A stretch of DNA of 64,000 nt from Comamonas odontotermitis (GTDB lineage Bacteria; Pseudomonadota; Gammaproteobacteria; Burkholderiales; Burkholderiaceae_C), in contig NZ_JACHKZ010000010.1 of assembly GCF_014207855.1 (NCBI RefSeq), positions 62,001 to 126,000 on the forward strand, in the 5' to 3' direction. Shown here piece by piece: positions 1 through 63,618 of this stretch. How positions within the stretch are numbered: position 1 is the stretch's first letter; each line of letters opens with the position of its first letter. A program made the position numbers and the translations under genes. The notes beneath the pieces are model-generated. The model worked only from the letters and a program-made list of their open reading frames with translations, was not told the DNA's origin and did no database searches.

Positions 1-2513
1 TCCACGACGTGGGGGCTGGCGGCTTGTCCAATGCCTTCCCTGAACTGACCAACGATGCGGGCCGTGGCGCGCGCTTTGACCTGCGCGCCGTCAAGCTGGA
101 GGAATCTGGCCTCGCTCCCAAGGAAATCTGGTCCAACGAGAGCCAGGAACGCTACGTGCTGGCCATCGCACCCGAATCGTTGGCGCAGTTCACGGCGTTC
201 TGTGAACGCGAGCGTTGCCCGTTTGCCGTGATCGGCACTGCCACCGGCGAGCGCCAACTGGTGCTGGAGGACACGGCTGTTGCTTCGGGCGACCAGAAGT
301 TCCCCGTGGACATGCCCATGGACGTACTGCTGGGCAAGCCTCCCAAGATGCACAAGGATGTGACCACCGTCACGCGTGAGTTGCCTGCCATCGACCTGAC
401 CGGCGTGCCGCTGGAGAAGGCGGTGATCGATGTGCTGGCCCACCCCACCGTGGCTTCCAAACGCTTCCTGATCACCATTGGTGACCGTACAGTGGGTGGC
501 CTCACCCACCGCGACCAGATGGTTGGCCCCTGGCAGGTGCCCGTGGCCGATGTGGCCGTGACCCTGGCGGACTACAAGGGCTTTGCCGGTGAAGCCATGG
601 CCATGGGCGAGCGTACGCCGCTGGCTGCCATTAACGCCCCCGCCTCGGGCCGCATGGCCGTGGCAGAAGCCATCACCAACATGCTGGCTGCGCCCATTGC
701 GCTCTCCAAGGTCAAGATGTCGGCCAACTGGATGGCTGCCTGCGGCGAAGCAGGCGAAGACGCCGCGCTGTATGCAACGGTCAAGGCCGTGGGTATGGAG
801 CTGTGCCCGCAGTTGAACATCTCCATTCCCGTGGGCAAGGACTCGCTATCCATGCGCACGCAGTGGAGCGAGGGTGGCCGGGTGAAGAAGGTCACCTCGC
901 CTGTGAGCCTGATCATCACCGGCTTTGCATCCATTGACGATGTGCGCAGTACCTTCACGCCCCAGTTGGATGCCCACGAAGAAGACAGCACGCTCGTGCT
1001 GGTGGACCTGGGCCGGGGCAAGATGCGCATGGGCGGCTCCATTCTGGGCCAGGTGTTGGGCCAGAGCGGCAATGAGACCCCTGATCTCGACGATGCCAAG
1101 GACCTGATTGCACTGGTTGATGCCGTGAACACGCTGCGCGCCAAAGGCCAGATCCTGGCCTACCACGACAAGGGTGATGGTGGCCTGCTGGCCACGGTGG
1201 CCGAAATGGCATTTGCCGGCCATATAGGTGTGGCGCTGAACGTGGATATGCTGGTTACTGAAGGAGATGGTATCTCCGACAGCCGCATGGACAGCGGCGA
1301 AGGCAAGAACTGGGGCGCCCAGGTGTCGGGCCGCCGCGAAGACCTGACGCTGCGCGCGCTCTTCAACGAGGAACTGGGCGCCGTGCTGCAGATTCGCACC
1401 AGCGACCGCGACGAGGTTCTGCAGATTCTGCGCGAACATGGCCTGGCTACCTGCAGCCACATCATCGGCAAGACCCGGCCCGAGTCGTCTTCCGTGGACA
1501 TGGGCAAGGGCGAACTGCAGGTCTGGCGCGACGCGAAAAAGGTGTTTGGCGCGACGCTCTCCGATCTGCACCAGGTCTGGGACGCAGTGAGCTGGAAGAT
1601 TGCCCAGCAGCGCGACAATCCCGCCTGCGCCGACAGCGAACATGCTGCAGCCGGTGAACCTGCCGACCCAGGCATGCACGTTCAGCTTTCGTTCGATCCG
1701 CAGGACAACGTGGCCGCACCTTTCCTCAACGTGGCGGCCAAGCCTCGCGTGGCGGTGCTGCGCGAGCAGGGCGTGAACTCGCATGTGGAAATGGCCTATG
1801 CATTTGCCGAGGCAGGATTTGATGCAGTGGACGTGCACATGACGGACCTGCAGACCGGCCGCGCACAGCTCAAGGACTTTGCGGGCGTGGTGGCCTGCGG
1901 CGGCTTCAGCTATGGCGACACCCTGGGTGCCGGTATTGGCTGGGCACGCTCCATCACCTTCAACGATCGCCTGTCCGAACAGTTCCAGCAGTTCTTCGGC
2001 CGCACCGATACCTTCGGCCTGGGTGTTTGCAACGGCTGCCAGATGTTCGCTGAATTGGCAGACATCATTCCCGGCGCTCAGGACTGGCCGCGTTTCACCC
2101 AGAACCAGAGCAACCGCTTTGAGGCACGTCTTTCCATGGTTGAAGTGCTGGATTCGCCTTCCATCTTCTTGCAAGGCATGGCTGGCAGCCGTCTGCCGAT
2201 TGCCGTGGCCCATGGCGAGGGTTATGCCAACTTCAAGTTCCGTGGCAATGATGCCCAGGTGATCAAAGCCATGCGCTTTGTAGACAACCATGGCCAAGCT
2301 ACCGAGCAGTATCCTTTCAATCCGAATGGCTCTGCTGGCGGCCTGACTGCCGTCACCACCGCCGACGGCCGCTTCACGGCCATGATGCCTCACCCCGAGC
2401 GCGTCTTCCGCAATGTGCAGATGAGCTGGGTGGATTACGGCAAGGCAGGCGGCAAGTCTGAATTCAGCCCTTGGATGCGCGTCTGGCGAAATGCGCGCAA
2501 ATGGCTGGGCTGA
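1..2513 (+). CDS. purL: Phosphoribosylformylglycinamidine synthase, C-terminal part (5' end outside window)
   Basis: PurL makes formylglycinamidine ribonucleotide from FGAR, ATP and glutamine in purine synthesis, in the cytoplasm. The reading frame is already open at base 3 (HDVGAGGLSNAF, a conserved PurL segment), so the gene starts upstream; about 836 C-terminal residues are present, against roughly 1300 for the full single-chain form. The C-terminal third is a class I glutaminase: the nucleophile elbow GVCNGCQ has its Cys codon at 2028-2030, and MPHPERVFR near the end supplies the catalytic His and Glu. The stop is followed by a GC-rich hairpin. No neighbour shares its transcript on the visible side. 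Confidence 0.97.
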   Translation, partial: HDVGAGGLSNAFPELTNDAGRGARFDLRAVKLEESGLAPKEIWSNESQERYVLAIAPESLAQFTAFCERERCPFAVIGTATGERQLVLEDTAVASGDQKFPVDMPMDVLLGKPPKMHKDVTTVTRELPAIDLTGVPLEKAVIDVLAHPTVASKRFLITIGDRTVGGLTHRDQMVGPWQVPVADVAVTLADYKGFAGEAMAMGERTPLAAINAPASGRMAVAEAITNMLAAPIALSKVKMSANWMAACGEAGEDAALYATVKAVGMELCPQLNISIPVGKDSLSMRTQWSEGGRVKKVTSPVSLIITGFASIDDVRSTFTPQLDAHEEDSTLVLVDLGRGKMRMGGSILGQVLGQSGNETPDLDDAKDLIALVDAVNTLRAKGQILAYHDKGDGGLLATVAEMAFAGHIGVALNVDMLVTEGDGISDSRMDSGEGKNWGAQVSGRREDLTLRALFNEELGAVLQIRTSDRDEVLQILREHGLATCSHIIGKTRPESSSVDMGKGELQVWRDAKKVFGATLSDLHQVWDAVSWKIAQQRDNPACADSEHAAAGEPADPGMHVQLSFDPQDNVAAPFLNVAAKPRVAVLREQGVNSHVEMAYAFAEAGFDAVDVHMTDLQTGRAQLKDFAGVVACGGFSYGDTLGAGIGWARSITFNDRLSEQFQQFFGRTDTFGLGVCNGCQMFAELADIIPGAQDWPRFTQNQSNRFEARLSMVEVLDSPSIFLQGMAGSRLPIAVAHGEGYANFKFRGNDAQVIKAMRFVDNHGQATEQYPFNPNGSAGGLTAVTTADGRFTAMMPHPERVFRNVQMSWVDYGKAGGKSEFSPWMRVWRNARKWLG

Positions 2514-2563: not shown

Positions 2564-2584
2564 GGGTGTTGTGGCTGCCAGGGC

Positions 2585-2788
2585 TAAGAACCTGTTCCAA
2601 GTCTCTACGCAACCTGCAGGGACAGCACCTTGGCGGGCGCCCCTAGCCGGGCTAGGGGCGATCTACGTCGTTGCAGATCCTCGCAATAGCAGTGCTATTG
2701 CTGCGGTACTGCGCCGCCAGGCGCACCCCTTGCATCTCATCGCGCCAAGGTACTGTCGCGGCGCGAGGTGACTTTGAACAGGTTCTAA
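2585..2788 (-). repeat. MITE-like intergenic repeat, copy 1 (204 bp)
   Basis: The element is bounded by imperfect terminal inverted repeats built on TTAGAACCTGTTC. Its reverse complement matches the element at 28707-28978 over most of its length, including the block CAATAGCANTGCTATTG and the block CTGCAACGACGTAGATCGC. Compared with copy 2 it carries an extra 19-bp palindromic piece (CTAGCCNGGCTAG) and lacks about 90 bp near one end. It encodes no protein I can support. The structure fits a non-autonomous mobile or REP/BIME-type repeat; no target-site duplication is obvious. Confidence 0.75.
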
Positions 2789-2886
2789 GTACGGCCTGAT
2801 GGCAGTTTTTTGACCACTCCGATGTCTCCCGAAAACGGAGGACTTCGGCAGGTGTGGGTCTTGTACTTCTTTCTTTCGCAGTGTCT

Positions 2887-3226
2887 TCAGGGCGCCAGCA
2901 TCGGATCGCCTGTCGCGGCGGCGGCTGCAACCGCTTTGGGCTTCTTGCCATTGCACTGCGCTACACGCTTTGTTTCCTTTTCATAGAGGCTGCTGATCGG
3001 CACATCAGTAATCTCGATGCTGCATTCGTCAGATGCTCCGTGCTGGTTGCCAATGGGCACTGCTCGCCGCCTTGGGCGCATCTGTGCACTCCATCCGCTT
3101 GATGCAAGCGTCCTGCATGTGTATGCGTTCCAGCTGCAAAAGCTCATCATGCATTTGGGGTATGCGATTCAGTGTGTGCGGTGATGGATTGAGGTATCCA
3201 TTTGACCGGTAGTGGCGTGTCACCAA
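2887..3226 (-). pseudogene. Possible decayed small exported-protein gene
   Basis: Two overlapping minus-strand frames give protein-like text that would join through one frameshift near 3040-3080: an upstream part containing LQLERIHMQDACIKRMECTD and a downstream part containing SLYEKETKRVAQCNGKKP. Spaced cysteines and charged helices look like a small secreted Comamonadaceae protein, but I recognise no family. The rest of 2789-3437 holds only AT-rich promoter-like sequence. Confidence 0.2.
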
Positions 3227-3264
3227 GGTTGGTGCGATGGCTGATCAAAGGTTTTATTGTGGTG

Positions 3265-3293
3265 TTGATACCAAAAATTACATTTTTTAAAAT
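3265..3293 (+). promoter_or_regulatory. Candidate sigma-70 promoter for the hybrid kinase gene
   Basis: TTGATA at 3265-3270 and TAAAAT at 3288-3293 are separated by 17 bases, each one mismatch from consensus, in a markedly AT-rich stretch (about 3240-3375). Transcription would start near 3300, leaving a leader of about 140 bases before the kinase start. Confidence 0.4.
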
Positions 3294-3437
3294 TCTTCAT
3301 GAATAGCGTCGTTGATAGTGTGTATATATGTATCAAATTGCGCTATAAATTCACATATTCAATTGAAAAAATGTACTGAGGCCGTGCGCTGCTGTGACTG
3401 GGGTACGGCCTTTGCACTGTTGTCCGGGAGTTGATGC

Positions 3438-6400
3438 ATGCACGAAGATTTTCCAGAGATCCCTTCCGGCCTGCTGGACCGTTGGCAGGGCTTGTTGCGG
3501 AACTATGCCGATCTGTTGGAGCTATCCGTAGCGCGCGTATTGCGTCTGCAACAGGGCAAATGGCATTTGATGTCGGCAGCCGGACCGGCCGCCGACCGCA
3601 TGGAGCAGGGCCCGGTGCCTGCTGACGCGCCCCCCTTTGCGGAAGAATTGGTAGTTGCCCAGAAGCTGGTATGCAAGGAAGCATGGAGCGATGCAACTGT
3701 CACTTTGAAGCATCAAGACGGTGAGCGCGTGGCGCAGAGCTATGTCGGCATTCCACTTTACTGGCCCAGTGGCAGCCTGTTTGGCGTTCTGGATGCACTC
3801 CATGGTGCCCCCCGGGTGTTTACTGACGCTGAGCGCAGGCTGTTGGTTCAGATTCGTGATGACATCGAGGACCACCTGGTGCTGCTGCACGGCAATCGTG
3901 CGGACCTGGTGACCAACCATGTGACGCGTGAGCGCCTGCAGGCCAGTGAGGAGCGCTTTCGCCTCCTGGTAGAGAACGCGGGCGATGATTATTTTCTACA
4001 CGACGACCAGGGGCGATTCATCGATGTGAACGAGCGCGCCTGCCGCAGCCTGGGTTACTCGCAGGCAGAGCTGCTGACCATGGAGGTGGGCGATGTGGCC
4101 TTCGGGGTGACGGCAGACCAGCGGCACCAATTGTTTCGGGACGCATTGCCTGGCAGCTCCCGGGTGGTAAAGAGCCACCACCGCCGCAAGGACGGCAGCA
4201 TGTTCCCCGTAGAGGTGGTGATCACCTGCGTGGAGATTGGTGGGCGCAAGCTGTTCATGGGGTTGGCGCGCGATATCACCGAGCGTGAGCGGGCGGAGCA
4301 GGCCGTGCGCGAAGCCAATGCCGAGCTGGAGCGGCGTGTGGCATTGCGGACTACCGAGCTGCAGGATCTGTCAGGCAAATTGCAAGGGGTGCTGAACAGC
4401 GCGGCGGACATCATCTTTGTGAAGGATTCCGGCGGGCGTTACCTGCTCTTCAACCCGGCGGGTGAACGTTTTCTGGGGCGCAGTGCAGCCGATGTGATGG
4501 GCAGCACCGATTTCGACTTGTTTCCACCAGAGCTGGCGGCGGTGTATACCCGCGCAACGCAGCAGGTGCTGCAGATGCAGGACAGTCTGACCTTGGAAGA
4601 GAAGGTGCCTTCTGCGCATGGTTTGCGCACCATGCTCACGACCCGCAGCCCACTGCGCGATGAACACGGCCGTATTCATGCGGTGATGGGCGTGGCCCAT
4701 GACATCACCGAGCGAAAGCAGGCGGAGCTGGAGTTGCAATTGCAGCGCGAGCGCATGGCGTTGGCGATTGATGTGGGCGCACTGGGTGTGCTGGATGTCA
4801 ATCTGGACACGGACGCCGTGGTCTGCAATGCCCAGGGGCTGGATATTCTTGGCCTGCAGGCTGGCGACGGATTGACGCAGGCGGCGGTGCACCGGCATAT
4901 TCATCTGCAGGATCGGGCCGCATGGGACGCTCATGTGAGGGAGGTGCGCTCTGGTGCAGGCTCGCAGCGGGTGCAATTGCGTATTGTTCGACCAGATGTT
5001 GGCATGCGCTGGGTGTCGGCTGCCGCGCGTTTTGTGGCGGGGCAGGGGCAGGTTCCCGATCGGTTGGTGTGCGTCATGGTCGATGTGACCGAAAGCCATC
5101 AGGCGGAGCGGCAACTCCAGAGCAGTTTCGTGAGCCTGCAGCAGGCAGAGCGCTTGGCGCGCATGGGCTCGTGGACCTTGGATATCCAGCGGCAGGTCTT
5201 TGCCGTGTCCGACATGCTGCGGGAAATCGTGGGATTTGCTCCCGACGAAGAAGTATCGCTCAGTCGCCTCACCTCGGTGATGTCGGAGGAGAGCTATCGG
5301 AAGGTCAAGGCAGGGCTGGAAGACTGCGTGGCCAATGGCAGCGCGTTCACCATGGAGTTCGAGCACTACCGCACGGACGGCAGTACCTTTGCCGCCGAAG
5401 TGCGCGCCCAGGGTATCCGTGACGACAGCGGCGAGGTGGTGAGCGTGACGGGTACGGTGCAAGATGTGAGCGAGCGGGAAGAGGCGCGCGCGCAGCTCGC
5501 TTCGCTGGCAGACCGCCTGCCCAGCGGTGCACTCTACCAACTCAGCTATGTCAATCCCGAGGTAGGGTTCGAGGGCCCGGTGGAGGGCGGCGACTTGCGT
5601 CTGAACTACATTAGCGGCGGTATTGAATCGCTGGTCGGCATCTCGGCGCAACAGCTTCAGGAAAATCCGCGGCTGTTGCTCGACGCTATGCACGAGGATG
5701 ACCGGGCGCCGTTTTTGAATGCTTCACGCGATGCGAGTGCGGCCCACAGTCTATTCGAGTGCGATTTCCGCTTGCGCCGGCCCGACGGCTCGCTGATCTG
5801 GCTGCGAATCCGTTCGGCACCGCGCAAAGTCAAGGGTGGCTGGATCTGGGACGGCATCATCCTGGACATCACGCGCCAGCATGAAGTGGAGTCGGCGCTG
5901 CGCCAGGCCAAGGAAGCGGCAGAGCAGGCCGAGCGGGCCAAAGCCGACTTCCTGGCAAATATGAGCCATGAAATCCGCACACCGATGAATTCGGTGCTCG
6001 GCATGACACGTCTGGCGCTGCAAACCGATCTGTCGCCACGCCAGAAGAACTATCTCGAAAAAATCGATATCTCCACACGTGCCCTGCTGTCCATCATCAA
6101 CGATATTCTGGATTTTTCGAAGATCGAGGCTGGTGGGTTTGAGCTGGACGACACGGACTTCGCCTTGGAGCAGGTGCTCGAAGCCGTATCCAATGCAACC
6201 TCGCTGCGTGCCGATGAGAAAGGACTGGAGGTTGTCTATGCGATTGCACCGGATGTGCCGCGCGCCTTCCGAGGCGATCCGCTGCGCCTGTCGCAGGTAC
6301 TGATCAATCTGGTAGGCAACGCAGTCAAATTCACGGATTTGGGTGAAGTGGTCGTGTCTGCGCATCTGCTGCAGGTGCGTGAAGATGGCGGCAATCTGGT

Positions 6401-8213
6401 GCAGTTCAATGTGCGCGATACCGGCATAGGCCTGAGCCAGGAGCAACTGGGCCGCCTGTTCGTGCCTTTCCACCAGGCAGATGGAGGCACCTCGCGCCGC
6501 TATGGCGGAACGGGCCTGGGCCTGACCATCTGCAAGCAGTTGGTGGAGAAGATGAATGGAGGCATCCGCGCAGAAAGCGAGCCTGGGCGCGGCAGCCTGT
6601 TTTCGTTCACAGTGGTGCTTGGACAGCCGTCGAGCGACATGGCGCTGCGGGCCAAGTCGCTCAACGGCTATCGCGTCCTGGTCGTGGATGACAATGCCAC
6701 CTCGCGGGAAAGCCTGGGGGGCATGATCAGCAGCTTTGGCATGCAGGCCGATTGTGTGGATTCCGGGCCCCAGGCGCTGGCGCGCATTGAAGCAGTGGCG
6801 CAGGAAGGCAAGTCCTATGACCTCGTGTTGATGGACTGGCAGATGCCGGAGATGGATGGCATTGAAGCGACGCGCCGCATACGCCAGGAAAGCCGGCAGG
6901 AGCGCGTGCCTGCCGTGCTGATGGTCACCGCTTACGGACGCGACGAGATACTGAACCAGGTGACCTCGGCGGGGCTGCAGGGAATTTTGGTCAAGCCGGT
7001 GACCGAATCCGTGATGTTCGATACGGTGCAGGATGTGCTGGCAGGCCCACGCATGCACGCGCAACAGTTCAAGACCTCAGGCCAGGTTCGCAGTGTGCTC
7101 ACACCATCGATGCGCCGCATGCTCAATGGCAAGCAGGTGCTGGTGGTGGATGACAACGCCCTCAATCTTGAAGTTGCTACAGACTTTCTGGTGCTGGCCG
7201 GGGTTCAGGTGGATACCGCCGTCAACGGCCTGCAAGCCATTCGTCGCCTCGAAATGAAGAGCTATGACGCGGTGCTGATGGATATGCACATGCCGGAGAT
7301 GGATGGCGTGACTGCCACGCGCGAGATTCGCCGCAATCCTGCATGGCAAACCCTGCCCATCATCGCGCTCACGGCGCAGGCTCGTCCTGAAGACCGTGAG
7401 GCAACGATTCGCGCGGGCATGACCTCGCACCTCTCCAAACCGATTGAGGAGCATCTGCTGTACCAGACCTTGATCGACATTTTCTCTGGCGATGCAGCGT
7501 ACGGTGGCAAACCTGCACCGGCTGAAGACCCGGCGGGTGAGGCAACGGCAGCCCGCCATGCCCTGTCTCAGCAGGGGCCCGTGGATTTCGACGCTGCGCT
7601 GCACCGCATGGGCGACAACCCCGAGCGCATGCAGCGCCTGTTGCATGGCTTTGTGCGTGACTTTGCCGAGGTGCCGCAGCGTCTGGATGCTGCGGTGGCG
7701 GCACAGGACCGCAAAAATGTGGAAGCGCTGGCTCACTTGGTAAAGGGTGCCTCAGGTTATGTGCAGGCCAAGGCACTGACCCATTCGGCAGACGCACTGG
7801 AGCGGCAAGCAAGCCGCGGAGATGCTGCCGCCATGGAGCGGTTGGCTTTTACCTTCCGCTCTGATTTGACGGCAGTGCTGGAAGTCATCAGCGACCGCCT
7901 GAAGCGACAGGCCGATGCGGCTGCCAAGCAGCTGCCTGCGGAACTTCACCAGCCAGCGGCCGGTGTTGATGCCCAGAAGGCCCTGGCCCTGATCGACAAG
8001 GCAGAGCCCTTGATGCAGAAAGGTGACTACGCTGCCACCGCGCTGTTGGCCGATCTGGCCCAGGAGCTGCAAGGCCACCCTGCGTCCGCAAAGCTTGAAG
8101 AGGTGCGGGTGCTGTACGAGGATATTGAATTGAATGATGCATTGATGGCCATGGGCCAGTTGCGCCAGATCTTGGGCGCCGCCAAGGACACAGCGTTGGA
8201 GGAGCGGGGATGA
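3438..8213 (+). CDS. Hybrid sensor histidine kinase, GAF + five PAS + HisKA/HATPase + two REC + HPt
   Basis: A 1591-residue phosphorelay kinase. A GAF-like domain (about 10-150) is followed by five PAS/PAC units (about 170-290, 315-430, 435-560, 570-690, 700-820), several ending in the PAC motif DITER. The dimerisation helix carries the phospho-acceptor His844 (NMSHEIRTPMN), and the ATPase N-box has Asn961. Two receiver domains have acceptors Asp1133 and Asp1282, and a C-terminal HPt has His1433 (AHLVKG). There is no membrane segment, so it should sense a cytoplasmic or diffusible cue. The ATG has GGGAG seven bases upstream. The stop overlaps the start of the diguanylate cyclase gene by ATGA, which makes that protein the likely output. 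The ligand is unknown. Confidence 0.95.
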   Translation: MHEDFPEIPSGLLDRWQGLLRNYADLLELSVARVLRLQQGKWHLMSAAGPAADRMEQGPVPADAPPFAEELVVAQKLVCKEAWSDATVTLKHQDGERVAQSYVGIPLYWPSGSLFGVLDALHGAPRVFTDAERRLLVQIRDDIEDHLVLLHGNRADLVTNHVTRERLQASEERFRLLVENAGDDYFLHDDQGRFIDVNERACRSLGYSQAELLTMEVGDVAFGVTADQRHQLFRDALPGSSRVVKSHHRRKDGSMFPVEVVITCVEIGGRKLFMGLARDITERERAEQAVREANAELERRVALRTTELQDLSGKLQGVLNSAADIIFVKDSGGRYLLFNPAGERFLGRSAADVMGSTDFDLFPPELAAVYTRATQQVLQMQDSLTLEEKVPSAHGLRTMLTTRSPLRDEHGRIHAVMGVAHDITERKQAELELQLQRERMALAIDVGALGVLDVNLDTDAVVCNAQGLDILGLQAGDGLTQAAVHRHIHLQDRAAWDAHVREVRSGAGSQRVQLRIVRPDVGMRWVSAAARFVAGQGQVPDRLVCVMVDVTESHQAERQLQSSFVSLQQAERLARMGSWTLDIQRQVFAVSDMLREIVGFAPDEEVSLSRLTSVMSEESYRKVKAGLEDCVANGSAFTMEFEHYRTDGSTFAAEVRAQGIRDDSGEVVSVTGTVQDVSEREEARAQLASLADRLPSGALYQLSYVNPEVGFEGPVEGGDLRLNYISGGIESLVGISAQQLQENPRLLLDAMHEDDRAPFLNASRDASAAHSLFECDFRLRRPDGSLIWLRIRSAPRKVKGGWIWDGIILDITRQHEVESALRQAKEAAEQAERAKADFLANMSHEIRTPMNSVLGMTRLALQTDLSPRQKNYLEKIDISTRALLSIINDILDFSKIEAGGFELDDTDFALEQVLEAVSNATSLRADEKGLEVVYAIAPDVPRAFRGDPLRLSQVLINLVGNAVKFTDLGEVVVSAHLLQVREDGGNLVQFNVRDTGIGLSQEQLGRLFVPFHQADGGTSRRYGGTGLGLTICKQLVEKMNGGIRAESEPGRGSLFSFTVVLGQPSSDMALRAKSLNGYRVLVVDDNATSRESLGGMISSFGMQADCVDSGPQALARIEAVAQEGKSYDLVLMDWQMPEMDGIEATRRIRQESRQERVPAVLMVTAYGRDEILNQVTSAGLQGILVKPVTESVMFDTVQDVLAGPRMHAQQFKTSGQVRSVLTPSMRRMLNGKQVLVVDDNALNLEVATDFLVLAGVQVDTAVNGLQAIRRLEMKSYDAVLMDMHMPEMDGVTATREIRRNPAWQTLPIIALTAQARPEDREATIRAGMTSHLSKPIEEHLLYQTLIDIFSGDAAYGGKPAPAEDPAGEATAARHALSQQGPVDFDAALHRMGDNPERMQRLLHGFVRDFAEVPQRLDAAVAAQDRKNVEALAHLVKGASGYVQAKALTHSADALERQASRGDAAAMERLAFTFRSDLTAVLEVISDRLKRQADAAAKQLPAELHQPAAGVDAQKALALIDKAEPLMQKGDYAATALLADLAQELQGHPASAKLEEVRVLYEDIELNDALMAMGQLRQILGAAKDTALEERG

Positions 8214-47057: not shown

Positions 47058-47150
47058 GGAAACGTGACCGAGTGGCCGAAGGTGCTCCCCTGCTAAGGGA
47101 GTATGGGGTGTAGAGCCTCATCGAGGGTTCGAATCCCTCCGTTTCCGCCA
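47058..47150 (+). tRNA. tRNA-Ser, anticodon GCU
   Basis: A full cloverleaf with long variable arm: acceptor GGAAACG / CGTTTCC, anticodon loop CTGCTAA (GCT), T-loop TTCGAAT, and encoded CCA at 47148-47150. It reads AGC/AGU codons. Its 3' end is the likely attachment site of the adjoining integrase element. Confidence 0.97.
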
Positions 47151-47234: not shown

Positions 47235-48446
47235 CTAAATCGCTTCTTTGCGTGGTGCGGCCTGGGTGCTGATCGCGGCATTGACTGCGGCGAGATTGGC
47301 GCCTCGATCCGCCGATGGAATCCACTTCGCATAGTCGCGCATCATCACTTGGACCGAGTGGCCATGCTGCATTGCCACCCACATCGGATTGGCCCCGGCC
47401 ATCAGGGCAAGGGTCACGCTGGTGTCCCGGCATTCCTTTGGTGCCCTGTACCTCACGCCTATTGCGCGTAGTGTCAGGCGCCATGCCCTGCGCTGCGACT
47501 GTTCATCATGGTAGGGCGCTCCGGTGTTGGGGTTATAGAACACCTCGGCATTCATGGCTGCAGTTCTGGCGCGCTGGCGCTGGATCACGCTTGCCGCGCG
47601 TTGATTCAACTCGACAGTGCGCTCCACATTGGTCTTGGTACGGTCCTTCTCCATGGTCATAACCTTGGAGCGGCGCACAAGTACCGTAGACTTTCGCAAA
47701 TCCACATCCTCCCATCTCAGCGCAATGTGCTCACTTGCCCGCAAGCCAGCGAAAAACGAGAACTCGAAATAATCCGCCATCACATCGCCAAAGCGCTTTT
47801 GCATTTCCCTGAGAATCAGCTCAACCTCATCAGGCGCAAAAGGATCTGGGTTTGCCTTCTGGATTTTCTGATTATCAATCCCCTCGATAGGATTGGCTAT
47901 GCGGCTGGGTGGTTTGCAAATCAGGTCGAAAACACCGCGCATGGGGATCAGAATATTATTCTGCGTTTTGCGTGATAGACCTTTCATTTTTCGACCCGTC
48001 TCTAAATCAATACGATCCTTGCTGAGCGTTGCCAAATGGGTAAGCACCATTTCATGGCTGATCTTCTCCGGTCGCAGCTTGCCGAATTTTGGAACCCAAT
48101 AGGCATTTAGGTGCCTTATGTAAATGGCGTGGGTTGAATGCTCCAGACTCCGAGCGGCCAAGGTTTCCCAGACTTTGGCCCATTCTGCGAAGGTGCGGAC
48201 ACCAGCCTCGCTTTCTGGCTGGTGCTGCTGCAGGTGCTTGTAGTCGGGGAAATGTGCTGCAAAGCTGAAAGTGCCATGCTTTATTTCCTCGACTATGGTT
48301 GCTCGCAGCCGTGCTGCATGTTTTAGATTCGCTGCAGTAGGGCGTAGATCAAGCGTAGGAGAAACCTGCTTGCCATTCCATGTAAAGCGAACCTCTATGC
48401 GGTCGCCTCGCGGTCTAACACCTCCTGTCGTTGCTTTGCGGCCCAT
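47235..48446 (-). CDS. int: Tyrosine-recombinase integrase
   Basis: A 403-residue phage-type integrase. The N-terminal arm-binding domain (about 1-65, RIEVRFTWNGKQVSPTLDL) is of the DUF3596 kind, followed by a SAM-like core-binding domain (about 85-185) and the catalytic domain. Catalytic positions seen are Arg236 (GLRASEH), Arg340 (KECRDTS, with Lys in place of the usual His three residues before), His363 (QHGHS) and nucleophile Tyr372 (RDYAKW). It should integrate the element at the neighbouring tRNA-Ser. The start overlaps the excisionase-like gene by 52 bases. Confidence 0.92.
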   Translation of the reverse strand: MGRKATTGGVRPRGDRIEVRFTWNGKQVSPTLDLRPTAANLKHAARLRATIVEEIKHGTFSFAAHFPDYKHLQQHQPESEAGVRTFAEWAKVWETLAARSLEHSTHAIYIRHLNAYWVPKFGKLRPEKISHEMVLTHLATLSKDRIDLETGRKMKGLSRKTQNNILIPMRGVFDLICKPPSRIANPIEGIDNQKIQKANPDPFAPDEVELILREMQKRFGDVMADYFEFSFFAGLRASEHIALRWEDVDLRKSTVLVRRSKVMTMEKDRTKTNVERTVELNQRAASVIQRQRARTAAMNAEVFYNPNTGAPYHDEQSQRRAWRLTLRAIGVRYRAPKECRDTSVTLALMAGANPMWVAMQHGHSVQVMMRDYAKWIPSADRGANLAAVNAAISTQAAPRKEAI

Positions 48447-54326: not shown

Positions 54327-54767
54327 TCAGCCAATAATTTGGCCGGTATAGATGAATTTTTCGGCAATCTTGATGAGCTTGCCCATTAGCAGAGCGGAAT
54401 CTGGCGTGAGCATTTTGGCTACTTCATGTGCCTCGGGTTCGTTCAAGATGTAGATCAGCAGGTAGCCGTGAGTAGGATCCTGGGCATAAACTAGCACTCG
54501 ATCACTGGTCTTGCGTCCCCGTCGCAGCCATTGAGCATTCCATCTGCGCAATGGCTGGGCATTGGCCAGTGGCACCAAGTGAACATGGCGCAGTCCCATG
54601 GAGCCATCGGAAAGTGTCGGGGCAATGTATAAGCCGTCTTTGCCAAAGAAATAGGAACTGTATTCGCCATCGTTGCGCCACTTCTCAAACTCAGCAGCGA
54701 ATGCCTCTGGAGACTCTCCAAGCCTACCTAACTGCTTGCAGATCGCAGCGGTACATTGCGTCTTCAT
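54327..54767 (-). CDS. YafO family toxin (mRNA interferase type)
   Basis: A 146-residue protein matching the YafO toxin pattern: helical N-terminus (EAFAAEFEKWRNDGEYSSYFFGKDGLY), central strand RHVHLVPL, then RRWNAQWLRRGRKTSDRVLVYAQDPTHGYLLIYILNEPEAHEVAK and a final helix LMGKLIKIAEKFI. E. coli YafO is a ribosome-dependent mRNA interferase. This copy is slightly longer (YafO is 132). It follows a small putative antitoxin gene by 11 bases. No Shine-Dalgarno is visible, so translation may depend on coupling. Confidence 0.8.
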   Translation of the reverse strand: MKTQCTAAICKQLGRLGESPEAFAAEFEKWRNDGEYSSYFFGKDGLYIAPTLSDGSMGLRHVHLVPLANAQPLRRWNAQWLRRGRKTSDRVLVYAQDPTHGYLLIYILNEPEAHEVAKMLTPDSALLMGKLIKIAEKFIYTGQIIG

Positions 54768-54778
54768 GAGAGAAGGAG

Positions 54779-55000
54779 TCAGATTTCCAAGTCGGCGAAA
54801 TCTTCCAGCGCCGCCCTGGCACTAAAAAGGCGGGCGTTAGCTGGATTGGAAATCTTCTGAAATGTGCGCACAGCATTGCCCTTTGTGGGCGAATCGATGA
54901 CCACCACCTGCTTGCGCTTGGAGGCAAGAGGGCGCACAGAGTAGCCCGCACTGCGCTTGAGAGCGCTGCGTCCATGGGCGTGCGTGTAAATAATGGTCAT
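54779..55000 (-). CDS. Putative antitoxin for the YafO-type toxin
   Basis: 73 residues: a basic N-terminal part (HAHGRSALKRSAGYSVRPLASKRKQVVVID) that could bind DNA, then an acidic tail (ARAALEDFADLEI) that could bind the toxin. Position directly upstream of the YafO-like gene in the same transcript is the main support. It is shorter than, and not clearly homologous to, YafN (97 residues, Phd/YefM fold), so the antitoxin may be of another class. Confidence 0.55.
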   Translation of the reverse strand: MTIIYTHAHGRSALKRSAGYSVRPLASKRKQVVVIDSPTKGNAVRTFQKISNPANARLFSARAALEDFADLEI

Positions 55001-55131: not shown

Positions 55132-55413
55132 CTATTTACGTACATTTGTGTTCTGCGAATAGAGGAATTGCAAAAACTCGCTGTCATTTGATTTGATCCG
55201 TCTTCCTACTGTTTTGTATCGGATCGGGTCGTATCTCTCGCCTGGCAAAAAAACAGATTCCACATCTCGAAGAGCACGCCAACCAAAGCCCCTGAGCCTT
55301 AATAGGCCAACAGGGTATCTAACTTTGATTTTTTCAACCGAATCAATCCCATTCCTCTGTAGGGCAAGGTAGGTGCGCGGAGATAGCTCTTTGAATCTAG
55401 GATCTTCGATCAT
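55132..55413 (-). CDS. RNA polymerase alpha-CTD-like helix-hairpin-helix protein
   Basis: 93 residues. Residues 9-55 (LSPRTYLALQRNGIDSVEKIK ... LLRLRGFGWRALRDVESVF) follow the RNA polymerase alpha C-terminal domain pattern L-S-x-R ... L-x-x-x-x-I ... L-L-x-x-x-x-x-G-x-x-(S/A)-L. Arg13 takes the place of alpha Arg265, the residue that contacts UP-element DNA and activators. A basic, flexible tail follows (RYKTVGRRIKSNDSEFLQFLYSQNTNVRK). It is the first recognisable gene after the leftward operator. A role in modulating host transcription is inference. Confidence 0.65.
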   Translation of the reverse strand: MIEDPRFKELSPRTYLALQRNGIDSVEKIKVRYPVGLLRLRGFGWRALRDVESVFLPGERYDPIRYKTVGRRIKSNDSEFLQFLYSQNTNVRK

Positions 55414-55540
55414 AATTTTTATCTATCGATCATGTTTTATTGATGCTTTTTCCTAGTATTTCAAAAATTCTTGCCCGCCACAACAAGACATTGCTTGAAG
55501 TTGATGCTTACATCCGACATTCCTGTTAACAGTCGTTGAA

Positions 55541-55618
55541 ACCTAAGCCCTCTGTCACAAGGCTTGGGTTTCCCGCCCGGATGCGCTCCGGGCAGGCGCG
55601 CTGGGATTCCAACCAGCG
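55541..55618. ncRNA. Candidate structured RNA (C4 antisense RNA-like), strand uncertain
   Basis: Three hairpins lie in tandem: CTAAGCC / GGCTTGG (55543-55567), GCCCGG / CCGGGC (55575-55593) and CGCTGG / CCAGCG (55599-55618). In plus orientation the segments GGCTTGGGTTTCCCGCC and CTGGGATTCCAACCAG remind me of the C4 antisense RNA of P1-type phages; this is recall, not a search. On the minus strand the same region would be leader of the leftward transcript. A 60-codon minus-strand frame at 55461-55643 overlaps it and is not convincing as a gene. Confidence 0.4.
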
Positions 55619-55940
55619 TTGCCGTTGTTGATCTTGGTCGCATTCACCTCACCAAATTCAACCTTGCAGGGTTACGGCTGGGCACCGCACAGAGCTGCGG
55701 CCATGCCCGCAGATGCATTGAGCCGGGCGAATGCCTCACATAGGAGAGGCAAGCAACATCGGCTAGGCTGACTTTTTAAAGACCTGAGAGGGTGCTGGCG
55801 CGATCACTGGCACTCATCGCCTGGTGCAACTCCCACTGCACTCCTCTGGAGCTGGACCGCCCGCTGCATCCTGTAGGGCTTATGGGGGCCGGATCGCTAC
55901 CCCTTCGGTCGTTTCGCGTTTGTTGCTGCGACGGGATGTA
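55619..55940 (-). other. Long non-coding leader between leftward operator and first gene
   Basis: No frame here has a believable start and family. It is GC-rich with several short inverted repeats. If the promoter near 55950 is right, this is the 5' part of a roughly 500-base untranslated leader before the alpha-CTD-like gene. Confidence 0.4.
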
Positions 55941-55943
55941 ATG

Positions 55944-55958
55944 TACAGCATTGCTGTA
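55944..55958 (-). promoter_or_regulatory. Leftward operator/promoter (OL-like)
   Basis: TACAGCA-T-TGCTGTA, a 15-bp dyad with the same core as the rightward operator at 56829-56843. On the minus strand it fills the spacer between TTGATT (-35) and TACATT (-10), 16 bases apart, so a bound repressor would block this promoter. A weaker third copy (TACAACATTACTTGA, 11 of 15 matching) lies at 55994-56008. Confidence 0.7.
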
Positions 55959-56026
55959 TTAAATCAAGCGATGCACGATTCCTGACTAAAAAATACAACA
56001 TTACTTGATGATGAAGAGCAAAGAAA

Positions 56027-56046
56027 AGCCGCCTAGGGTGGCGGCT
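56027..56046 (-). terminator. Terminator of the repressor gene
   Basis: AGCCGCC / GGCGGCT stem, 6-base loop, followed on the minus strand by TTTTCTTTG. It lies 21 bases after the repressor stop, so the repressor transcript ends here and does not feed the leftward operon. Confidence 0.85.
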
Positions 56047-56066
56047 GTTTGGAGGCAGGAGGATGC

Positions 56067-56780
56067 TTATGCAGGAATAAAGGCGTCTGGTGGAACGCTT
56101 CCCGCAACACGGTGGATGCTCTCAATCTCATCCTTGGAGATGGTCATTGGTGCGTATCCATTGTTGATGCTCAGCAACTGAATCTCATCATCACGTATCC
56201 AGTTCAATTGCTTGAGGAGCTTGTGTCCATCAGCGAGCTTCACAACAACGTCTCGACCTGGTAGCGCCTCAATTCCTGGCGTGACAACAATGAACTCGCC
56301 AGCTCGGTAACGTGGGTGCATGGAGTCGCCTTTTACTCGCACGGCATAGGCTGACTGGTCTTTGACCCAGTATTCAACAAAACCCTCGCCATGGCCAACT
56401 GGGTATTGCATCTCCTCTAGGAAGCCATCTGGTCCAGCTTTGACATGCCCAACAACAGGGATCAGGCGCGAAGGGGCCAGAGCTGGAGCCAAAGCCACAT
56501 TGGTTGTTTCAATTGGTGATTCTGTAGAGCGCCCCGTCAGCAGATCGACGCCAAAAATGGATGCTAGGACAGGTATCCACTTTTTATCCATGCGCCCAGT
56601 TGCAAACCAGCCTTGCACAGTCTGTGGCGAGCATGGTTGCTCAGATATCTCCTCACAGAGCAGCGCCAAGTGCCTTTTGGTCTTCTTCCCGTCAGTGGGA
56701 TTCCATGCTGCAAATGCAATAGCAAGCCGTGTCCGCACCAATTCAGCGGTGGATTTGTCGGATGGTGGTGAATCAAGCAT
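56067..56780 (-). CDS. Phage repressor with S24 (LexA-like) autocleavage domain
   Basis: 237 residues from ATG 56780. The N-terminal DNA-binding part is helical (about 10-80, LLCEEISEQPCSPQTVQGWFATGRM). The cleavage site Ala115-Gly116 is in GHVKAGPDG. The S24 catalytic Ser153 lies in VKGDSMHPRYRAGE, with its general-base Lys at about 187-190 (GHKLLKQL). RecA-stimulated self-cleavage and SOS induction of the prophage are expected. A TTG at 56816 would add 12 residues. It lies between two matching operators, like lambda CI. Confidence 0.9.
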   Translation of the reverse strand: MLDSPPSDKSTAELVRTRLAIAFAAWNPTDGKKTKRHLALLCEEISEQPCSPQTVQGWFATGRMDKKWIPVLASIFGVDLLTGRSTESPIETTNVALAPALAPSRLIPVVGHVKAGPDGFLEEMQYPVGHGEGFVEYWVKDQSAYAVRVKGDSMHPRYRAGEFIVVTPGIEALPGRDVVVKLADGHKLLKQLNWIRDDEIQLLSINNGYAPMTISKDEIESIHRVAGSVPPDAFIPA

Positions 56781-56827
56781 CACTGTATTCTCGTTCTCAA
56801 GGTGCCGATCAGCCAATGCTTTATTTA

Positions 56828-56844
56828 ATACAGCAATGCTGTAT
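56828..56844 (+). promoter_or_regulatory. Rightward operator/promoter (OR-like)
   Basis: ATACAGCA-A-TGCTGTAT, 8-base arms. It lies between TTTATT (56820-56825) and TATCAT (56842-56847), 16 bases apart, on the plus strand. Transcription would begin near 56854, only about three bases before the ATG at 56857, so the mRNA would be leaderless or nearly so; no Shine-Dalgarno is present. Confidence 0.75.
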
Positions 56845-56856
56845 CATCAGCACATC

Positions 56857-57108
56857 ATGGCGAAAGCACCTAACCCTCATTTTCTAAAAGCCATTGCTGT
56901 TTTTGGCAGCGAGGCCGCATTGGCGCGGGCAATCGACAAGCCTGCCCAGTTCATCAACCAGATCAAAAAAGGGGAACGCCCCATGCCTGATTCCTGGGCT
57001 CCTTTGATTGAGCTGGCGACTGCAGCGCTTGGCAACAAGATTCTTTGCGAAGACCTTGCGCCTGGCTTTCCCTGGCACGGCGTGCGCCAGCAGCCAGCTC
57101 ACGCCTGA
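56857..57108 (+). CDS. Cro/YdaS-like helix-turn-helix regulator
   Basis: 83 residues. The HTH reads FGSEAALARAIDKPAQFINQIKKGERPMPDSWAPLIE, a YdaS/Cro-type fold in which the second helix meets the operator. It is divergent from the S24 repressor and directly behind the shared operator, the position of lambda cro. No ribosome-binding site precedes the ATG. It should repress the repressor promoter and favour lytic development. Confidence 0.85.
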   Translation: MAKAPNPHFLKAIAVFGSEAALARAIDKPAQFINQIKKGERPMPDSWAPLIELATAALGNKILCEDLAPGFPWHGVRQQPAHA

Positions 57109-57380: not shown

Positions 57381-57914
57381 ATGAGTGCAGTTGATTGTGT
57401 GAGCCGTGGAGTGAACAACTACCCAGGGGGCCGCGCCGCGATCCGTGCCCGCCATTGCCCCGACAAGGTAGATGACACATTCCGCAAGGAACTCTCGGGA
57501 GCCGCTACCCACAAGCTGGGCTTGGCTGATGGCATCGCCATTGCCGCCATGTGCTGCGAGCTGAAAACGCCTCACTGCTACGACCTGGCGAATTTCGTGG
57601 CCCAGGAGTGCGGCGGGCGCTTCGAGCTGGCGGGCGAGTCTGGACCAGTCGAGCAAAGCCCAATCGCCAAGGTTTCCAAGCTGGTGCTCGAAACCTCGCA
57701 TGTCACCTCCGTGGTGATCGATTCCATGCAAGACGGCGTGATCAGCGACAACGAGCTGGCTGTGATCGAGCGCGAGATTGCAGAAGCCGAAGAGGCATTG
57801 CGTCTGCTGCGCCAAGCCGCCCGTGCTGTGAATGCTGCTGGCAAACCTGCCAGTGAGCGCCGCCATCTGGATCTGCCGGTGCGCTCGATGCGCGACGAGG
57901 CTGCGACGGCCTAA
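57381..57914 (+). CDS. Phage CII-like regulatory protein (YmfL/CP76 type)
   Basis: 177 residues. The segment NNYPGGRAAIRARHCPDKVDDTFRKEL, then HKLGLADGIAIAAMC, matches the phage regulatory protein CII/YmfL family (Pfam Phage_CP76). The C-terminal half has a helical coil rich in Glu and Ala (AVIEREIAEAEEALRLLRQAARAV). It probably controls lysogeny choice or replication-gene expression. AAGGAGAT lies 7 bases before the ATG. The 272 bases between the cro-like stop and this start hold only doubtful frames. Confidence 0.8.
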   Translation: MSAVDCVSRGVNNYPGGRAAIRARHCPDKVDDTFRKELSGAATHKLGLADGIAIAAMCCELKTPHCYDLANFVAQECGGRFELAGESGPVEQSPIAKVSKLVLETSHVTSVVIDSMQDGVISDNELAVIEREIAEAEEALRLLRQAARAVNAAGKPASERRHLDLPVRSMRDEAATA

Positions 57915-62462: not shown

Positions 62463-62553
62463 GGAAGCATGCCCCGAAGGTCGGGAAACGGTCTTGAAAA
62501 CCGTCGCCATCCGTGCAGAGCGGGTGAGGGTTCAATTCCTTGTGCTTCCGCCA
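62463..62553 (+). tRNA. tRNA-Ser, anticodon UGA (element-encoded)
   Basis: Acceptor GGAAGCA / TGCTTCC, D-stem CCC/GGG, anticodon stem ACGGT/ACCGT around CTTGAAA (TGA), long variable arm, CCA encoded. The T-stem has one G-G mismatch and one G-T pair, so it is slightly degenerate. It reads UCA and related codons. Confidence 0.85.
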
Positions 62554-62557
62554 GTTT

Positions 62558-62632
62558 GGGCCTGTCGTTCAATGGACAGGACTTCCGGCTACGAACCGGA
62601 CGATGAGGGTTCGACTCCTTCCGGGCCCACCA
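62558..62632 (+). tRNA. tRNA-Arg, anticodon ACG (element-encoded)
   Basis: Acceptor GGGCCTG / CGGGCCC, anticodon loop CTACGAA (ACG), T-loop TTCGACT, CCA encoded. Four bases after tRNA-Ser. The ACG anticodon needs A34-to-I editing by TadA, whose gene lies at 29462. Confidence 0.92.
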
Positions 62633-62662: not shown

Positions 62663-62856
62663 CTGCCTTGTAGTTGAGAAGATGATTACGCTTTGATGTC
62701 GGCTATTAACCAAAGATGACTTTGAAGTATGCGAGAATGCCAAGAGAATTATTTTGTTACAATTAATTCGCTTCCGTCATTTTGGCTTACTCGGGCTCAA
62801 GCTGTGCGAAATGCTCATCTGGAGTCAGAGTAGCTCAATCCAACATCGAGGTTTAT

Positions 62857-63618
62857 ATGCTGCGCCAAACCATTCTTTCATTTCTAGTGACATTGGGTGT
62901 GGGGTTTGCAAACTCGTCTACCGCTGCGCCGCTGACGGGAACGTCTGCTTGGTCGGGTGACTTTGCTGAATCTGCAATTTCAACCGATCTGAAATATGCG
63001 GATGGCACGCCATACAGCGATCTACCGGTGTTCATGATCTGCATAGATGTGACCAAGACGTACCCGGTGGGAAGTGTGAGTTACCAATCCGAAGCTGGCG
63101 GCAGCGCTTTGAAGGGTGGATCTGGAGAGGCGGGAGTTGCAGCCGTTAATTGGCTATTTGATCAGTATTACGCGACCTATTTCAAGGGCGGATCAGATGC
63201 TCAAAAATGGGCATTCCAGTACGCTATTTGGGAGCTTGGAAACGACTATAACGGCGCCATCAGCAGCATCAGTGCCACTAGCGGCTTGTCACGTCCGTTT
63301 GAAGATGGATACAAGAGCACTGATCCAGAATTCATTGCTGCATATCAGGCGATGTATCAGGCAATGACATCAACATTGCCAACACTGGGTGGGGCATATC
63401 GTTCGAAGACATACACGATCGATCTGTTTGGTAGTACTGACCCTACGTACCAGAGCATGGTTGCATTGGTTGAAAAGCCCCCAGTGCCTCCTGCTGCCGC
63501 AGCGCCCACCCCAGTGCCTGGCTTAAGTTCAGTTGGTTTGTTTGTTCTTACTGGTTTCTTGTCGATGGTTGCTGTCGGTGGAATTTCTCGCAACCGGACA
63601 TCAAAGAAGAAGGTCTGA
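62857..63618 (+). CDS. Exported protein with CTERM-like C-terminal sorting signal
   Basis: 253 residues from ATG 62857, with GAGG upstream. A Sec signal peptide (LRQTILSFLVTLGVGFANSSTAA) precedes a Gly/Ser/Tyr-rich extracellular-type domain containing AVNWLFDQYYATYF and WAFQYAIWELG, typical of surface proteins described as PEP-CTERM-like. A Pro-rich spacer (KPPVPPAAAAPTPVPG) leads to a hydrophobic helix LSSVGLFVLTGFLSMVAVGG and a basic tail RNRTSKKKV. This tripartite end resembles PEP/IPTL-CTERM signals used with exosortase-like enzymes. Base composition is more AT-rich than the core genes. Confidence 0.75.
   Translation: MLRQTILSFLVTLGVGFANSSTAAPLTGTSAWSGDFAESAISTDLKYADGTPYSDLPVFMICIDVTKTYPVGSVSYQSEAGGSALKGGSGEAGVAAVNWLFDQYYATYFKGGSDAQKWAFQYAIWELGNDYNGAISSISATSGLSRPFEDGYKSTDPEFIAAYQAMYQAMTSTLPTLGGAYRSKTYTIDLFGSTDPTYQSMVALVEKPPVPPAAAAPTPVPGLSSVGLFVLTGFLSMVAVGGISRNRTSKKKV

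Follow-up and report, generated by a model that had tools for sequence, protein, structure and literature searches.

A 93-codon gene lying behind a CI-type repressor gene in a Comamonas prophage encodes a small protein whose likeness to the CTD of the RNA polymerase alpha chain (alpha-CTD) is confirmed, and we propose, tentatively and with somewhat less than even confidence, that it is a DNA-binding protein of the alpha-CTD type, free-standing and produced early from a leftward promoter under CI repression. Why would a phage carry a loose piece of something so like its host's polymerase? In what follows, "the window" is the whole stretch of 64,000 nucleotides that was analyzed; L numbers are the loci fetched for comparison and G numbers the genomes, and the coordinates of all features are collected in Table 1.

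Sequence, predicted fold and DNA-contact residues

With a threshold of E ≤ 1, the protein has a sole Pfam match, RNA_pol_A_CTD (PF03118), over residues 9–53 (E 0.0058), and its 16.8 bits fall below the curated gathering cut-off of 23.8. RNA polymerase alpha makes up 14 of the 15 PDB sequences listed by phmmer (the best E is only 0.022), in alignments that set R13 against the alpha-CTD arginine numbered 265 in E. coli; four NCBIfam models match, every one of them rpoA, and a search of PHROGs gave no match. The initial annotation had read an alpha-CTD pattern, with an arginine in the place of Arg265, from the letters of the DNA, and it read them correctly. Chance resemblance, which we considered, is ruled out by the profile of the family described below and by those of its members that score above the Pfam cut-off. 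The ORF is bounded by stops and, by its limits and by Pfam, is without the N-terminal assembly domain of alpha, and therefore its product cannot serve as a polymerase subunit in the usual manner; an ordinary rpoA is present elsewhere in the genome. The curated cut-off leaves the protein outside PF03118, it is not a subunit of RNA polymerase, and no catalytic domain or other further Pfam domain was found in it at E ≤ 1.

An AlphaFold2 model, built from a 70-row alignment (A2), has a pLDDT of 93–95 over residues 11–60 and helices at 5–9, 12–20, 26–32, 35–38, and 45–55, with a basic C-terminal tail holding a short, more weakly predicted helix (77–86). When the model is compared with the PDB by Foldseek, RNA polymerase entries fill ranks 1–30; E-values are weak (best 0.016, with 0 of 87 matches at E ≤ 0.001), the superposition on several alpha-CTDs is 0.8–1.0 Å over 44–46 columns, and TM-scores by target reach 0.76, other entries giving longer alignments at larger rmsd. 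VIA-align places a Streptomyces alpha-CTD best (Z 8.1, 2.1 Å over 56 residues) and RAD51-type HhH domains next (Z about 6.5), and by the two programs together, RAD51-type N-domains and the Hjm helicase are the structures ranked next below alpha-CTD. The predicted fold, then, is that of alpha-CTD, as the annotation had expected of a structure prediction and superposition; we met neither another fold nor a set of repair HhH proteins unlinked to immunity regions, the RAD51 and Hjm HhH domains coming second best. A model of a two-domain paralogue, with two similar four-helix units, is supportive only (mean pLDDT 76.6, pTM 0.41).

In E. coli numbering, alpha-CTD contacts DNA through Arg265, Asn268, Gly296, Lys298, Ser299, and Glu302, and at these positions, the window protein has R (R13), L, G (G44), R, A, and D; the equivalents of 259 and 261 lie in gaps of the residue alignment. 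Arginine stands at 265 in all seven rows of the phage/mobile subgroup and in 23 of the 31 single-domain proteins classed as chromosomal, and in tandem proteins, in 15 of 34 first domains and 7 of 37 later ones; four other phage-associated rows (L044, L074, and two of L078) have it in none of the three that can be read, the fourth being incomplete. Asparagine at 268 is kept in 4 of 7 phage/mobile rows (the window has leucine), 21 of 31 chromosomal singles, and 1 of 34 first tandem domains. Glycine at 296 is nearly invariant (7/7 phage/mobile, 31/31 singles, 33/34 first and 37/37 later domains, 4/4 other phage-associated). Arg265 and Asn268 of E. coli bind the DNA backbone and minor groove (PMC11434276). 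The conserved core of the window protein has a pI of 10.1, and such a basic core is not general among alpha-CTD-like proteins (6.9 in L041 and 8.4 in L071, with 8.1 for an ordinary rpoA CTD). Six members (L033, L069, L045, L070, L071, and L078) have in common a tail motif, [LI]SE.L...L; the window tail matches it loosely (SEFLQFL), and it is absent from L041, L042, L044, and L074.

The repressor region and related prophages

Table 1. Positions within the window of the features discussed
Feature	Position	Strand	Details and basis
tRNA-Ser(gct) beside integrase-like gene	47058-47150
Integrase-like gene	47235-48446	-	94–95% identical in L033 and L069
YafO-like toxin	54327-54767	-	no homologue in the four related prophage stretches compared
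73-aa ORF downstream of the 93-aa gene	54779-55000	-	no convincing family match (Pfam, PHROGs, NCBIfam)
Alpha-CTD-like protein gene	55132-55413	-	93 aa, ATG start; core about residues 3–58; R13, G44
Leader between PL-like site and 93-aa gene	55414-55939	-	about 530 bp
Unsupported 60-aa ORF in leader	55461-55643	-	ORF list
Rfam RF02917, Burkholderiales-2 RNA	55689-55763	+	81.2 bits (gathering 67.9); antisense to leftward transcript
Candidate leftward promoter PL	55940-55967	-	TTGATT-16 nt-TACATT, operator within spacer; hexamers by eye
Leftward operator palindrome TACAGCATTGCTGTA(T)	55944-55959	.	repeat and operator comparison
Terminator-like hairpin after repressor gene	56027-56046	-	terminator scan
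CI-like repressor, S24 peptidase domain	56067-56816	-	Pfam, PHROGs
Candidate rightward promoter PR	56820-56847	+	TTTATT-16 nt-TATCAT; hexamers by eye
Operator TACAGCAATGCTGTAT, overlapping PR spacer	56829-56844		inverted-repeat and operator comparison
YdaS/Cro-like regulator	56857-57108	+	YdaS_toxin 29.0 bits (cut-off 30); phrog_35 repressor
CII-like regulator	57381-57914	+	Phage_CP76 / phrog_101

The gene shares its strand with the S24 repressor gene and lies behind it. Beyond the terminator-like hairpin, positions 55944–55969 match as an inverted repeat of 26 nt (96%) a segment before the Cro-like gene (56818–56843), and a 15-bp palindrome, TACAGCAxTGCTGTA, is common to the leftward promoter-like site and the promoter of the repressor/Cro region; an automatic scan for consensus promoters called none. 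On the minus strand from the operator to 54287, the scan listed no terminator-like site, and therefore one transcript could span the genes for the 93-residue and YafO-like proteins. The 73-residue ORF between these two is a possible antitoxin of the latter, and the integrase-like gene with its tRNA-Ser would mark the left end of the prophage. Elsewhere in the window, near the prophage replication genes and right after two tRNA genes (62463–62632), a gene at 62782–63618(+) encodes an exported-looking protein with, by eye, a CTERM-like sorting tail.

In lambda, gene N heads the leftward operon left of cI, with cI, cro, and cII in that order. The arrangement here is alike in that a repressor-controlled gene heads an operon left of cI and in the same cI/cro/cII order, and the initial annotation had accordingly called the 93-residue gene the first after the leftward operator. 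The CI-type operator, its palindrome, and the common strand uphold this, and the claim to first place holds barring the unsupported 60-residue ORF that precedes the gene in the leader. The likeness to lambda goes no further: the product has an alpha-CTD-like fold, nothing here suggests antitermination, and the folded core of the model argues against an N-type, Arg-rich RNA-binding peptide.

That homologues might recur at the same place in other prophages had also been foreseen, and four such prophages were found, with the homologue behind the repressor gene and on its strand in L041 (genome G008), L069 and L071 (both G048), and L033 (an IMG/VR contig). Their repressors are of S24 type in three, and the 187-residue one of L041 matches HTH_3. 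In a comparison of the prophage stretches that leaves aside genes near the fetched ends (dnaB, for example), the alpha-CTD-like gene is matched in all four (44–53% identity over 51–77 residues), as are orf62, orf268, orf285, and orf73_57099, whereas the window Cro and YafO are matched in none and CI in one (144 residues, in L033). With a homologue in 4/4, the alpha-CTD-like gene is thus a standing part of the left arm of this phage group. Its shared place in the five prophages would be explained in part by common descent, because the integrase is 94–95% identical in L033 and L069. A search for 11-mers that occur both in the cI-cro gap and ahead of the gene found repeats in the window and L069 only; palindromes on both sides that look similar were picked out by eye from those listed, with no chance control, in L041 (ATCAGTCCGACTAAT and ATCAGTCGGACTAAT) and in L071 (ATCGGTTTACCGAT and ATCGGCTAACCGAT), and L033 has no clear operator-like repeat. 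Genome G008 also holds a near-copy (L042, 93% amino acid identity), about 400 bp from tRNA-Ser(gct) and beside an aspartokinase-like gene, the site that the window prophage occupies; it is probably a relic.

The leader has its own distribution. Its best stretches are 82–91% identical over 232–348 bp in L033, L041, L069, and L071, with shorter pieces matched in L049, L056, and L082 and no match among plasmids; among phages, the matches cover one-third of it (at 71%) in nine from Bordetella avium and 12% of it in one from Acidovorax. The family profile finds no alpha-CTD-like gene in the roughly 8 kb of the one Bordetella phage opened (L092), and the leader is thus more widely spread than the gene. 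On the opposite strand, all five prophages carry RF02917, which was not found in seven further loci scanned; neither strand of the region folds unusually well (z −1.4 and −1.1), so we claim no RNA role, and no paper on Burkholderiales-2 RNA turned up by name in the literature searched. A reading of the leader as an HK022-like put site is not supported, there being no second copy near the rightward promoter.

A family of free and tandem alpha-CTD-like proteins in Comamonas

The initial annotation had taken the protein for an isolated curiosity of one phage, and here it is incomplete: by sequence, the phage lineage appears to be a single branch within a larger family of Comamonas proteins, many of which lie outside such prophages. 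In a search of 299 genomes, the window protein had a match in 9 (its own included), all of one genus and one of them weak; the weak match, G031 (E 0.0078), had none with the profile and was dropped, and the family profile confirmed 8 of 53 Comamonas genomes, own included. Four named loci (Comamonas koreensis KCTC 12005 and Comamonas sp. JUb58, BIGb0152, and B21-038) came from a search of genome_contigs with the L048 protein; the window protein itself had no match there.

Across L033–L091 and the window, the family comes to 76 ORFs with 113 domains, counting one truncated ORF (L078) and viral contigs, some of which repeat chromosomal groups; the ORFs hold one domain (42), two (32), three (one), or four (one). 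PF03118 is matched at E ≤ 0.01 by 42 of 70 domain rows (best 1.5e-10), HHH_5 by 36 of 70, and DUF3701 (PF12482) by 5 of 70 (best 9.5e-5). Five members, three of them above the PF03118 cut-off, are in the window's own genome when the window protein is counted, and nine PHROGs families are matched by other members, at E 0.0026 or worse. Against the PDB, profile A2 ranks an RNA polymerase alpha chain (1doq) first (E 2.3e-6), and a helicase of ski2 type (Hjm) comes seventh (6.7e-5).

Some groups of family genes keep the same neighbors in at least four genomes, and others are in prophage-like surroundings. The chromosomal ortholog groups are under purifying selection: dN/dS is 0.03–0.26 in five of them among 46 of 51 pairs listed, some members being left out (L085 from group a and L084 from c, for example) and dS exceeding 1 in some pairs. 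For two phage pairs, which differ by few changes, the values are 0.31 and 0.33. In a 104-row tree of few columns and many open forks, one branch (SH-aLRT 82) holds 10 of the 12 rows labeled phage or mobile; L042 and L074 are on it, yet in no intact prophage as far as inspected, and the branch to the window copy is long (0.6).

Several members caught our eye for other reasons. Tandem proteins of two, three, or four alpha-CTD-like domains are found at L045:5480-6499(-), in L060, and in L046, L054, L059, L077, L084, and L086, where they are encoded as two closely spaced genes. On the phage branch, L070:7299-7595(-) lies just upstream of a Gabija pair on the same strand, at 4511-6820(-) and 2565-4514(-) (GajA E 4e-253, GajB E 1e-213). 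At L078:7344-7973(+), two family genes, one whole and the other truncated, have an SLT-domain gene on one side and a 1,964-residue ORF, virion-protein-like by eye, on the other. Genes for IPTL-CTERM surface proteins lie within 5 kb of 7 of 33 members (at L037, L038, L039, L042, L045, and L064), where 1.2 would be expected (P about 1e-4), a linkage that covers the listed rows in five of eight genomes, counts orthologues as independent, and includes two loci sharing one CTERM gene.

Beyond Comamonas, the family appears to be nearly absent from the genomes sampled, in what was a loose first look (the best 15–20 candidates per genome were scored, and distant members may be missed). Profile A2 at E ≤ 1e-4 found 3 of 399 genomes at family level (its own and, weakly, G070 and G343, through an 85-residue HhH-like ORF and an integrase domain, respectively), 1 of 300 at order level (its own), and 4 of 398 at phylum level (its own, one rpoA, and two copies of a 158-residue protein). 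This last, at 1465-1938(-) of L107 and L109, from another lineage of the phylum, joins a cysteine-rich N-terminal part to an alpha-CTD-like C-terminal part and in L107, adjoins what look by eye like phage-replication ORFs. In L105, two adjacent, oppositely oriented recombinase-like ORFs resembling DUF3701 integrases score 17.6 and 9.0 bits with the family profile in their N-terminal parts. Searched by tblastn, 50,697 phage records gave the window protein nine matches at E 0.3–9, and the one opened (H6), which might have been a relative in a named phage, is an ordinary rpoA in an unverified fecal contig. The L071 protein had no match among phage records, and the L070 protein had no relative among plasmids. 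In viral_contigs, the window protein matched only the identical prophage record; A1 gave four loci, of which only L033 has a phage immunity region; and the L045, L071, and L041 proteins gave no match.

Possible roles and what they would mean

What might such a protein do? With the repressor lifted, it would be made early from the leftward promoter; in the manner of alpha-CTD at UP elements, it could then bind A/T-rich DNA in the minor groove, and it might modulate transcription either by occupying UP-like sites or as an additional alpha-CTD, to the help or hindrance of RNA polymerase at promoters of phage and host. The function suggested by the initial annotation, in which transcription is redirected through competition with the polymerase's own alpha-CTD or through bridging it, is by analogy a plausible candidate. 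For the reading of an early, DNA-binding alpha-CTD-like protein speak alpha-CTD as the best match in sequence (for the protein and for its family) and in structure, the constancy of Arg265 and Gly296 in the phage/mobile subgroup together with the basic core of the window protein, the operator-like repeats before the gene (in the window and L069, by eye in L041 and L071), and a homologue kept in all four related prophages that have so little else of the window's immunity genes, Cro and CI. Against it are the changes of Asn268 to Leu and Ser299 to Ala, the want of Arg265 in the three readable phage-associated rows outside the subgroup and its uneven retention in tandem relatives, a score below the Pfam cut-off, a basic core that is not general, HhH repair domains as next-best structures, the relatedness of the prophages, and the unclear operator of L033.

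Those same changed contacts would fit a protein-facing role, in which an alpha-CTD mimic serves as a decoy that binds activators (the host's, or CII-type activators of rival phages) or sigma region 4 and so lowers activator-dependent promoters early. The shared fold, a Foldseek rank 4 entry titled as a CII-dependent transcription activation complex, and the CII-like gene of this very prophage agree with such a role, but the DNA-facing Arg265 and Gly296 positions are fully kept in the seven-row subgroup, and we think it distinctly unlikely. Lambdoid leftward operons commonly carry genes for recombination, repair, or counter-defense, and the protein could instead be an HhH DNA-binding accessory to one of these with no part in transcription. 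The HHH_5 matches, the RAD51-type and Hjm domains that come next in structure (and Hjm in the PDB profile search), the similar domain of DUF3701-type integrases, and the Gabija genes beside one relative all lean that way; alpha-CTD ranks higher in both sequence and structure searches, however, the window protein has no catalytic domain, and among the part of the ORFs inspected, no recombinase gene was recognized beside it, which leaves this role unlikely.

More improbable still is that the prophages picked up a Comamonas regulator as host-derived cargo that acts on host genes rather than in the phage cycle. Members that keep chromosomal place and neighbors, and the proximity of IPTL-CTERM genes, could be so explained, but the phage and mobile rows have for the most part a branch of their own, the homologue is in every related prophage stretch, and the window gene, from its place after the repressor's operator, would be silent in the lysogen. 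A decaying or nonfunctional ORF seems to us very improbable indeed: the long branch, the lack by eye of an obvious ribosome-binding site, and the solitary, identical record in viral_contigs are set against a full-length frame, an intact core, homologous frames in related prophages, and the low dN/dS of the chromosomal groups, though the values are higher in the two little-differing phage pairs.

How new is the early alpha-CTD-like protein that we favor? With the CTD of RNA polymerase alpha it has in common the fold, the hairpin glycine, the Arg265 position, and the sequence of residues 9–53; it differs in being free-standing, with its own C-terminal tail, with Arg for Lys298, and with Asn268 and Ser299 changed. 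The short-protein model NF005841 (PRK07758, "hypothetical protein," 95 positions) is matched by 28 of 70 family domains (best 1.1e-5), although of eight proteins compared with it, the four that match score 17–25 bits against a cut-off of 115; in the window's genome it has no match at E ≤ 0.01, and in 9 of 14 control genomes it is matched below the cut-off, presumably on rpoA. DUF3701 of phage-type integrases is a similar HhH-like domain, but in both proteins inspected it was fused to a recombinase, and alpha-CTD is the better match for the family; HhH repair and nuclease proteins likewise join the module to a catalytic domain. T4 Alt and ModA ADP-ribosylate Arg265 of alpha-CTD early in infection, so phages do target this site (PMC2988021); our protein would be alike in aim, as a look-alike and not an enzyme. 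No free alpha-CTD-like protein of phages or Comamonas was described in the literature searched (mostly without subscription journals), and while the module itself is familiar, its use in free-standing or tandem form and early in a phage is apparently undescribed there.

A still wider proposal, which we regard as doubtful, is that Comamonas and its temperate phages have turned alpha-CTD into stand-alone binders of one to four domains that act in trans upstream of promoters, the phages using a dedicated branch at the head of the leftward operon to reprogram transcription that depends on UP elements or activators, a takeover that would work by a supply of free alpha-CTDs, not by modification or inhibition of the host's own. 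That phages modify alpha-CTD is known from T4; the supply of a free one by a phage we did not find described. If UP-type DNA or polymerase partners were bound, this would be a new way of redirecting transcription, and true binding would make the protein a natural dominant-negative tool for studies of alpha-CTD. For the genus itself, a lineage-restricted family with up to four tandem domains, under purifying selection, points to an undescribed regulatory layer in Comamonas.
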